This document shows positions 9,447 through 33,114 of a stretch of DNA of 64,000 nucleotides, in pieces (position 1 is the stretch's first letter; every line of letters begins with the position of its first letter). The DNA is taken from the NCBI GenBank assembly GCA_947304185.1, contig CAMZAM010000005.1, positions 1-64,000 on the forward strand. The letters run 5' to 3'. Source of the DNA: an uncultured Bacteroidales bacterium. Lineage in GTDB: Bacteria; Bacteroidota; Bacteroidia; Bacteroidales; F082. The translations under genes were made by a program, and so were the position numbers. The notes below the pieces were generated by a model. It saw only the letters and a list, made by a program, of their open reading frames with translations. It was not told the origin of the DNA and did no database searches.

Positions 9447-9537
9447 AAAATTATTTTTTTGCAAAAATAATAAAAAGTTTGGAGTGTGGAGTGTGGAGTT
9501 TGAAGTTTTTTTGTTCTCGTATTATTCGGATAATTCG

Positions 9538-9646: not shown

Positions 9647-10102
9647 TCAATCGGAGAAAACATATTTTTCGTCATATTCGATATTATGCAACCGTAAAAA
9701 CTCCAAATATTCCTCCTGGACACTCTGTTTTCTATGATGTTCCTTCTGATTTTCGATATATCTCATCACCTTGTCAACCTGCGACTGGCTGACCGAAAAT
9801 GCCCCATAACCGCCCTGCCATGCGAAATTTTCATATATTGGCGAAATTGTTTTTATCCATCGGCTGCTATTCCGTTTCATTTCCTCAACGACATGAGCGA
9901 CCGTCTCCGTTCTTGAAAACATCAACAAAACATGAACATGGTTTTCGACTCCGCCGACGCGCAAAACATGGCAACCTGTTGTATTAACGAGTCCGCCGAT
10001 ATAACTATGCACTCGCTCCCAATGCTTCTCCTCTATTGTCGGGCCCGTATTCCTCACATGAAACACTATGTGTAAATAAATTTTGGATAATGATTGTGAC
10101 AT
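9647..10102 (-). CDS. REP-associated tyrosine transposase (Y1/IS200-like, TnpA-REP)
   Basis: A 151-residue single-domain HUH endonuclease of the Y1 transposase family. The HUH motif is ENHVHVLL (about residues 53-60), the N-terminal IYLHIVFHVRN strand is typical, and the catalytic tyrosine is expected in the helix VDKVMRYIENQKEHH (about residue 114), followed by LEFLRLHNIEYDEKYVF, the usual C-terminal ending of these proteins in Bacteroidota. Unlike IS200 it is a solitary gene bounded by REP palindromes in opposite orientation. Family members nick and rejoin REP hairpins and may spread them. A TATCTTTG -7 element at 10357-10364 could drive it, giving a leader that contains the right-hand REPs. 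Confidence 0.92.
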   Translation of the reverse strand: MSQSLSKIYLHIVFHVRNTGPTIEEKHWERVHSYIGGLVNTTGCHVLRVGGVENHVHVLLMFSRTETVAHVVEEMKRNSSRWIKTISPIYENFAWQGGYGAFSVSQSQVDKVMRYIENQKEHHRKQSVQEEYLEFLRLHNIEYDEKYVFSD

Positions 10103-30860: not shown

Positions 30861-30885
30861 TAAACTGTAAACAGTAAACCGTAAA

Positions 30886-31596
30886 CTATTCCATGTTAGT
30901 ATAAACGGCCTGTACGTCCTCGTCGTCTTCAACTTTATCGAGGAAGTTCATGATGCTTTCCATCTGTTCGTCGTTGAAAGCGACAGGGTTGTTGGCGAAG
31001 CGCTGGAGGTTAGCCTTCACGATATTGACTTTCATACCTTCCAAAGCCTCGTGCATTGTGCCGTATGATGTCCAATCGCTGTAAGCGAAGGTGCCGTCTT
31101 CAGTCTCTTCAATCTCTTCGAGACCAGCGTCAATGAGTTCGAGCTCGAGGTCATCCTTGCTCATTCCGGCAGGGATTTCGATCTGGAACACAGCCTTACG
31201 TGTAAACATATATTCAAGCTGACCAGTCTTCAGAAGTTCGCCGCCAGCCTTGTTGAAATATGAACGGACGTTAGCAACCGTACGTGTTGTATTGTCTGTA
31301 GCGCATTCCACAACACAGAGGACACCGTGAGGACCCTTGCCTTCGTAGACGATTTCAACCATATCGGCTGTGCTCTTATCGGTAGCACGCTTGATAGCTG
31401 CATCGATGTTGTCCTTTGGCATGTTTTCCGCCTTAGCGTTTAAGATTGCCTGACGGAGTTTAGGGTTCATATCTGGATCCGGACCGCCTTCTTTTGCTGC
31501 GATTGTGATAATTTTTCCGAGTTTCGGGAACACTCTTGACATGTGGCCCCATCTTTTCATCTTAGCCGCCTTGCGGTATTCAAATGCTCTTCCCAT
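30886..31596 (-). CDS. yebC: YebC/PmpR family protein
   Basis: A 236-residue member of the YebC/TACO1 family, which acts as a DNA-binding regulator or, by more recent work, relieves ribosome stalling. Conserved parts: MGRAFEYRKAAKMKRWGHMS (short version of the usual MAGHSKWxNIxHRK start), GGPDPDMNPKLRQAILNAKAENMPKDNIDAAIKRA, and ELIDAGLEEIEE. The N-terminus departs from the common MAGHSKWANI, consistent with the second Bacteroidota YebC type. A TAATTTTG -7 box lies at 31624-31631, next to the hairpin array. Confidence 0.92.
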   Translation of the reverse strand: MGRAFEYRKAAKMKRWGHMSRVFPKLGKIITIAAKEGGPDPDMNPKLRQAILNAKAENMPKDNIDAAIKRATDKSTADMVEIVYEGKGPHGVLCVVECATDNTTRTVANVRSYFNKAGGELLKTGQLEYMFTRKAVFQIEIPAGMSKDDLELELIDAGLEEIEETEDGTFAYSDWTSYGTMHEALEGMKVNIVKANLQRFANNPVAFNDEQMESIMNFLDKVEDDEDVQAVYTNME

Positions 31597-31657: not shown

Positions 31658-31819
31658 AATGTGCAAAATTTTTAATGTGCCGCTAACGCGGAATGTGCTG
31701 CTTCGCAGAATGTGATGCGCTTCGCGCAATTTGGACGAAGTCCACACATTGCCGTCAGGCACACATTGACCGCAGGTCACACATTGCACGTAGTGCATCA
31801 CATTGCGAACGTAGTGAGC
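31658..31819. repeat. array of eight variable hairpins spaced by a hexamer that flips orientation
   Basis: The hexamer AATGTG starts at 31658, 31674, 31692 and 31709; its reverse complement CACATT starts at 31745, 31762, 31780 and 31799, so the period is 16-19 bases on both sides of a centre near 31731. Between hexamers lie hairpins that differ in sequence but keep their fold: CCGC-TAAC-GCGG, CTGC-TTC-GCAG, TGCGC-TTC-GCGCA, TGGAC-GAA-GTCCA, GCC-GTCA-GGC, GACC-GCA-GGTC, GCAC-GTA-GTGC and a decayed last one. The hexamers on the two sides can pair with each other. The array fills the space between yebC and the stop of the next gene. Confidence 0.85.
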
Positions 31820-31820
31820 A

Positions 31821-33095
31821 TCAGGTTTTCTGCTTTTTTTTCTTTGCAGCCGGAAACAACACATTATTCAATATCAGACGATAACCCGGTGAATTCGGGT
31901 GCATATCGAGCTCGGTCGGCGGATCGCCCACAAGATGCTGGTAATCCTCAGGGTCATGACCGCCGAGGAAAGTCCAGAAACCATTGCCGTAGTCGCCATG
32001 GATATAACGATCCTCCCCTAACGCTGCGTTATCGCCAAGAACGACCACCGTAGGCTTAACATATCTCTTGTCAAAGGCCGTTGTCTGTCCCATGAAAGCC
32101 TTGATCATTTTCTCATGATCTTGTGTGAGCATGGTCGGAACAGGATCCCATTTTGCCGAGAAATCAAACAACAAGAAGAAGTCGTTGCCTTCTCTAACCG
32201 ATTTCGGACGCGTCTGTGTAACATCGATGTTCGACACCTCGTATTCCTGCGGGTTTGTCGAGACAGTGAAGTCGGTGAACGCGAAGCAGTTATCGTAGTT
32301 CAAACGCTGCGGGTCGCCAAGTCGGATGGCGTCACCGTCGAACATCACGTCGCAGATGTCGAGACCTTCGGCCGCCAGAGCGATATCGAAGCTGTCGGGA
32401 GCCGAACACATTGCGAAGAGATAGCCGCCGCCAGCCACAAAGTCACGGATTTTTTTAGCGACTGCGAGCTTCAGCTGTGAGACCTTCGCAAAACCATACC
32501 GTTTCGCCGTCTCCTCCTGTTTTTTCACGTCTTCCTGATACCACGGATAGTTGCGGTAACGCGCCCAAAATTTACCATATTGACCAGTAAAATCCTCGTG
32601 ATGCATATGCAGCCAGTCGTATGTTGGCAGAACGCCGTCCAAGACCTCGTCGTCATAGATTATATCGTAAGGAATCTCAGCGTACGTCAGCACCAGCGTC
32701 ACCGCGTCATCCCAAGGGAGTATGTTTTTCGGAGCATAGACAGCCAAGCGTGGCACTTTCTGCAGCTTCATCTCATCCATATTGACGCCAGGATCAGCGA
32801 TTTCAGCCAATATCGATTCTGCCTGAACGTCAGCAATCACTTGATAAGACACATTACGAAGCTTGCATTCGCGTTCAAACATGTCGTGATAAGGTATCAG
32901 ATAACTTCCGCCTTTATAATTCAGCAGCCAGCTTATCTCCACCTCGCGTTGCAGCACCCAATAAGCCACTCCGTACGCTTTCAGATGGTTGGTCTGTGTT
33001 TCATCCATTGGAATCAAAATGTAGGCCGCGAATATATTCGGCAACGCTAACATCATGATTATCAATAGGATGATATATTTTTTAAACTTTTTCAT
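31821..33095 (-). CDS. secreted protein of the Bacteroidota 'asparagine synthetase B' family
   Basis: A 424-residue exported protein. The signal peptide is MKKFKKYIILLIIMMLALPNIFA, and the mature protein starts with the family signature AYILIPMDETQTNHLKAYGVAYW. Further conserved parts are WLLNYKGGSYLIP, DWLHMHHEDFTGQYGKFW and GGGYLFAMCSAPDSFDIALAAEG, which looks like a glutamine-amidotransferase-like Rossmann segment. Databases call close relatives 'asparagine synthetase B', but no glutaminase or synthetase motif of AsnB is visible and the protein is secreted, so the label is probably wrong. The ATG at 33095 gives a clean signal peptide. It has a divergent promoter with gcvT. Confidence 0.75.
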   Translation of the reverse strand: MKKFKKYIILLIIMMLALPNIFAAYILIPMDETQTNHLKAYGVAYWVLQREVEISWLLNYKGGSYLIPYHDMFERECKLRNVSYQVIADVQAESILAEIADPGVNMDEMKLQKVPRLAVYAPKNILPWDDAVTLVLTYAEIPYDIIYDDEVLDGVLPTYDWLHMHHEDFTGQYGKFWARYRNYPWYQEDVKKQEETAKRYGFAKVSQLKLAVAKKIRDFVAGGGYLFAMCSAPDSFDIALAAEGLDICDVMFDGDAIRLGDPQRLNYDNCFAFTDFTVSTNPQEYEVSNIDVTQTRPKSVREGNDFFLLFDFSAKWDPVPTMLTQDHEKMIKAFMGQTTAFDKRYVKPTVVVLGDNAALGEDRYIHGDYGNGFWTFLGGHDPEDYQHLVGDPPTELDMHPNSPGYRLILNNVLFPAAKKKKQKT

Positions 33096-33114
33096 CTTTA
33101 TCAAAATAATAATG

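Follow-up and report, generated by a model that had tools for sequence, protein, structure and literature searches.

The array of short hairpins at positions 31658–31819 of the DNA analysed here (64,000 nucleotides of contig CAMZAM010000005.1 from an uncultured Bacteroidales bacterium, hereafter the window) is best explained, with a probability of about 0.55, as a copy without a gene from a family of small mobile elements, the long form of which encodes an intervening-sequence protein (IVP, PF05635) that would act on the hairpins. The parts of this reading differ in strength. A family of small dispersed elements very probably exists, and it is apparently mobile among gut Bacteroidales; a role of the IVP in copying or placing the elements is a conjecture to which we give somewhat less than even odds.

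Architecture of the array

The left half-array (31658–31714, with CACATT on the minus strand) has AATGTG at 31658, 31674, 31692 and 31709, in steps of 16, 18 and 17 bases, and the right half-array (31745–31804, plus strand) has CACATT at 31745, 31762, 31780 and 31799, in steps of 17, 18 and 19 bases. The first-pass annotation, made from the sequence of the window, had given the same positions, order and spacing, which were recovered exactly. Eight AATGTG/CACATT hexamers lie within 147 bp, the orientation flipping mid-array, whereas in 200 runs of a first-order Markov (Markov-1) model of the window no 160 bp contained more than four such hexamers; for any hexamer the simulated maximum was six per 160 bp (20 runs), and the runner-up hexamer in the real window reaches five.

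The spacers had been described as hairpins, and this holds for seven of them. The first three are CCGC(taac)GCGG, CTGC(ttc)GCAG and TGCGC(ttc)GCGCA, the third lying at 31716–31728 with a loop that reads GAA on the minus strand; the left half-array units are CCGCTAACGCGG (31680–31691) and CTGCTTCGCAG (31698–31708). The array centre is marked by AATTTG (31728–31733, minus strand), a degenerate fifth left hexamer that occurs in related arrays too, and by the central hairpin TGGAC(gaa)GTCCA (31732–31744, plus strand), the first of right-hand polarity. The right half-array combines its four CACATT copies with the hairpins TGCC(gtca)GGCA, TGACC(gca)GGTCA and TGCAC(gta)GTGCA, and is followed by a terminal long hairpin, GCGAACGTAGTGAGC (31805–31819, plus strand; GC-GA-AC-GTA-GT-GA-GC), with two tandem G.A mismatches. 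The outermost left spacer, CAAAATTTTT (31664–31673), is no hairpin unit. We assign it to the ancestral flank because it is also present in the sister species G015, which carries AAAAATTTTGCACATT at the orthologous site without a CACATT array.

The terminal hairpin abuts the stop codon (31821–31823, minus strand) of a gene for an uncharacterised protein of 427 amino acids (31821–33104, minus strand; no NCBIfam match), and the array fills the gap from this stop codon to the promoter region of a YebC/PmpR family gene (30886–31596, minus strand; NF009044, TIGR01033), which served to locate the orthologous sites in relatives. There is no PF05635 gene inside the window copy. Downstream of yebC, at 30861–30891, lie the heptads TAAACTGTAAACAGTAAACCGTAAACTA, which G015 retains; G011 instead has two other repeats in inverted orientation.

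Hairpin shape is kept while sequence changes

Stretches from five array-rich genomes yielded 238 units, all tagged with CACATT, which reduce to 125 distinct sequences. A Watson–Crick hairpin of at least 4 bp is formed by 70% of the distinct units, compared with 3% after shuffling. Read on the CACATT strand, the triloops are GNA in 53 of 67 cases and TNC in two, the tetraloops are GNNA in 13 of 19 and TNNC in none, and a C-G pair closes the loop in 84 of 87 cases; all except one of the 13 GNNA loops (12/13) fall outside the GNRA class. In 15 units the stem is broken by tandem A.G/G.A on the CACATT strand, which is T.C/C.T on the opposite strand. The script that counted mismatches allowed G.A/A.G only, and the exclusivity of G.A rests on the hand-parsed set from the host genome, in which 25 non-paired cells include two exceptions (A.A and G.G). 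Stem positions 1, 2, 5 and 6 are 100% Watson–Crick in the 45 distinct units of the host genome.

The claim that pairing is preserved while the bases change is borne out by covariation. When the C22 array was aligned with its orthologues and copies, seven related arrays altogether, both sides had changed in 11 of 34 pairs, against a shuffled mean of 2.1, with none of 500 shuffles reaching 11 and slid controls giving at most two. Folding gave a divided answer: the whole window array has a global fold, with a z of about −3.4 as DNA and −3.8 as RNA, but the half-arrays fold no better than shuffles, and the single star-shaped cruciform or RNA proposed for the entire region is a conjecture.

ViennaRNA energies do not separate the strands as DNA and favour the non-CACATT strand as RNA, and G.T versus A.C substitutions (9 versus 6) favour neither strand. 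The triloop cGNAg and the tetraloop cGNNAg are exceptionally stable in DNA, whereas RNA prefers GNRA and UUCG. Since the observed loops fit the former rather than the latter, the folded form points to single-stranded DNA, a reading on which the energies are undecisive. We take the CACATT strand to be the one that is folded and read, because the polarity, the loop type and the G.A pairs are invariant on it.

A dispersed family in the genus

A search for spaced CACATT pairs in the host genome (G000) located eight array loci on as many contigs, C1, C2, C4, C5 (the window copy), C6, C10, C21 and C22, several of which show the central reversal. When 99 genomes of the genus were searched, four others proved rich in arrays of this design: G063 (RUG079), G087 (RGIG2740), G095 (RGIG7852) and G111. 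Triple-unit matches number 55 in G087, 76 in G095, 12 in G063, 7 in G111 and 11 in the host, and a reversed-pattern control gave 0–1. An exact degenerate pattern with CACACATT spacing found no match, because unit lengths vary. Rfam returned no match in the window. Other CACATT triple matches in the genus (for example CACATTCTTTCACATT in G025; CACATTTCTCCGTCAGCTCTA in G031 and G105) are simple minisatellites and were set aside.

The reversal noted at the centre of the window array is systematic. In the stretches read from the five array-rich genomes, 56 arrays have at least four hexamers; 38 of these run from AATGTG to CACATT and none the other way round, while 17 keep a single direction and one is mixed. 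Arrays hold up to 14 hexamers. We note that the 14-hexamer array at C13 of G095 (L295 922–1161) is one-directional with two hairpin units alternating, apparently a recent two-unit amplification.

A PF05635 gene between mirrored repeats

At the C4 locus of the host genome, a gene of the 23S rRNA intervening-sequence protein family (PF05635, E 4e-24; TIGR02436; nearest solved relative 2rld) stands between the two half-arrays; we take its product to be an IVP with a four-helix bundle. G063, G087, G095 and G111 have the same gene at this locus, again with AATGTG hairpin arrays on one side and CACATT hairpin arrays on the other, so that every one of the five array-rich genomes carries it, whereas G015, G011, G017 and G005 have nothing there. 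Most arrays are without the gene. The IVP may alternatively be a passenger with a habit of landing in the middle of arrays, much as it sits in 23S rRNA helices.

PF05635 genes occur in 66 of 80 genomes of the order. Inverted short (6-mer) repeats flank 25 of 29 such genes and 58 of 660 random placements (9%), and in an independent set of named genomes 37 of 70 genes and 7 of 350 controls (2%; p about 1e-26), both sets having been chosen by score rather than at random. In Thermophagus and in L265, plain AATGTG/CACATT heptads flank the PF05635 gene; L265 has GCGAAGC hairpins among its heptads and is an intermediate form between heptads and hairpins. PF05635 genes also lie between inverted heptads (AATGTTG; AGAGTTA) in Campylobacteraceae and in Deltaproteobacteria MAGs (L262, L269).

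We tentatively extend the main reading to a wider one, which we regard as possible rather than probable: PF05635 proteins would belong to a widespread minimal class of mobile elements bounded by inverted arrays of short repeats, in which structure rather than sequence is copied, so that a locus may exchange one repeat type for another and yet keep its mirrored layout; the CACATT hairpin arrays, used as single-stranded DNA, would be its most elaborate form. The literature covered, incompletely and hence as weak evidence of novelty, holds no description that we found of a hairpin array of the CACATT design, or of inverted heptads on either side of PF05635 genes.

Insertion, loss and turnover of units

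In the sister species G015 the array is absent from the orthologous sites at tgt, LOG, the tnaA-like gene, blaI and ftsE. At the yebC site, which holds the window array, relatives carry other repeats (TTGGC heptads in G015, TTAGTC heptads in G011 and CGCAGAT repeats in G017), each set flipping at its centre, whereas G095 has the same type of hairpin array with five left and one right units against three and four in the host. One array sits in frame inside malQ, within the GH77 enzyme reading frame. Unit number there differs between species, as the first-pass annotation had suggested should be looked for: none in G011, G017 and G005, one in G015, three in G063 and four in G000. A MITE has defined terminal inverted repeats and a target-site duplication; here the ends are arrays, and a non-systematic comparison of filled with empty sites showed no clear duplication. 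The tnaA-like gap holds a CACATT array in G000, GAAGTTT heptads in G017, and a different palindromic element, GTAGAGACG...CGTCTCTAC, in G005 and G011 (L159, L161).

Such observations bear on a local origin of the arrays through slippage of replication and template switching, in which no dedicated protein takes part and hairpins remain perfect because one arm serves as template for the other. The number of units differs at fixed loci; G095_par1 differs from G087_par1 by the exact loss of one unit; the hairpin beside the malQ array has changed in a compensatory manner (CGAATC/GATTCG, AGAATC/GATTCT, CGAGTC/GACTCG); and the same slot is filled by different repeat families in different species. Slippage of this kind may well explain the turnover of units within an array. 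As an account of the whole it is unlikely, because the same hexamer, hairpins and entire arrays are met again at loci that are not linked, and in other species, which requires transfer between sites, and because it leaves the PF05635 association unexplained. Whole-array copies at unlinked loci are 82–89% identical, and the malQ unit, as an identical 25-mer, is found at a second locus in G015. Over 165 bp, the C22 arrays of G000, G063 and G111 (L064 786–950; L302; L307) show no difference, where the adjoining flanks are mostly 80–90% identical between G000 and G063/G111. A tree of blaI and ftsE places G000 with G015 and G063/G111 with G011, so the genomes with the array do not form a single clade. 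C22 is most simply read as a case of recent array transfer, and strong constraint on that single copy may be an alternative.

Movement in trans of REP/BIME-like elements, by an IS200-type Y1 (RAYT) transposase that recognises single-strand hairpins, is distinctly unlikely. It would share the design of a short tag plus hairpin in opposed pairs, intergenic and sometimes intragenic; Y1 enzymes act on single-strand hairpins (PMC6006769); and the genome has two PF01797 genes, one of them within the window (9647–10102, minus strand). However, the GTAG/CGTC tag that is the hallmark of tagged REPs (PMC3733652) is absent, the tag here being CACATT, and the stems are not conserved as they are in REP families, as the diversity of the extracted units attests. 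Beside both Y1 genes stand other hairpins (GCCCCGAAGGGGC; GCGTGCCGAAGGTACGC) rather than CACATT arrays, and it is a PF05635 gene, not a Y1 gene, that lies inside a CACATT array. The Y1 locus of the window, with GC-rich hairpins (GCCCCGAAGGGGCAAC and relatives) on either side, is an ordinary REP/RAYT locus; a heptad array, AGTTTGGAGTGTGGAGTGTGGAGTTTGAAGTTT, lies next to it at 9474–9509.

An element kept by the host for a function in cis, for example as a 3′-end stabiliser, terminator or RNase III site, is very improbable. Most array copies do lie between codirectional genes, often touching a stop codon, and the C22 array is more conserved than its neighbours. Against this, C21 lies between divergent genes and another array is inside malQ; in sister species the orthologous sites have either no array or repeats of an unrelated kind; and between cysS and tsf an ordinary hairpin terminator occupies, in the host, the place of the PF05635 element of its relatives. 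A simple terminator is ruled out by the copy between divergent genes and the one within coding sequence.

Proposed mechanism

The scheme that we propose for the mobile family starts from what the arrays show. The unit is a hexamer, CACATT on the folding strand, plus a hairpin of 4–6 bp, usually with a GNA or GNNA loop, and units are set in two opposed half-arrays with their CACATT strands facing outwards. Full-length members carry the PF05635 gene between the half-arrays, and the window copy lacks it. Whole arrays have come to lie as copies in gene ends, in further intergenic gaps and even, in frame, in malQ, and single units have come and gone. The CACATT strand, folded as single-stranded DNA, would be recognised by the IVP; such an action is suggested because the IVP is homologous to Avd, a retroelement accessory protein (PMC10053308). 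The IVP would then help to copy or place the element, gene-less copies such as that of the window relying on IVP supplied in trans, and slippage with arm-templated repair would probably make and perfect new hairpins within arrays.

IVP/S23 proteins have been known from rRNA intervening sequences since the 1990s. The placement of the IVP between mirrored repeat arrays, in Bacteroidota and beyond, offers a testable nucleic-acid partner for it. The arrays are also a natural data set of more than 100 hairpins in which structure is kept, sequence changes and the strands are polar, in genomes near enough to each other for array gain and loss to be followed; movement of the element and the role of PF05635 outside rRNA thereby become testable.

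Comparison with known systems

No named element of the CACATT hairpin-array design was found. A CRISPR array has identical repeats of 20–50 bp, unrelated spacers and one orientation, and is excluded here, as the first-pass annotation had concluded, by the 6-base repeat, the self-complementary spacers and the reversed orientation. Intergenic heptamer repeats (TAACTGA in Beggiatoaceae; cyanobacterial heptads) are likewise short, tandem, intergenic and patchy in distribution, and related heptads flank PF05635 genes here; unlike the present arrays, the TAACTGA sets consist almost wholly of direct repeats (PMC4679880), and we found S23, intervening sequences and four-helix proteins mentioned nowhere in that paper. 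REP/BIME/REPIN elements with RAYT have a similar tag and hairpin in opposed orientation and are mostly intergenic with some intragenic copies (PMC3733652), whereas the present arrays, of up to 14 hexamers, are linked to PF05635 rather than to Y1.

The accessory protein Avd of diversity-generating retroelements (DGRs) is, like PF05635, a four-helix bundle, but works with a reverse transcriptase and template and variable repeats, none of which was seen beside the arrays in a non-systematic look. Intervening sequences of 23S rRNA are seen as selfish or mobile elements of unknown mechanism, and their removal from the transcript by RNase III is described for Coxiella (PMC4990558). Unlike those intervening sequences, the elements here lie outside the 23S rRNA gene, in intergenic gaps or in malQ, are bounded by arrays built of short degenerate repeats or of hairpin units, and in most copies, that of the window included, are gene-less. 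Those with an S23/IVP gene (Coxiella, Leptospira) nevertheless share with the present family a PF05635 reading frame between complementary ends, an arrangement found here at C4 and its orthologues.
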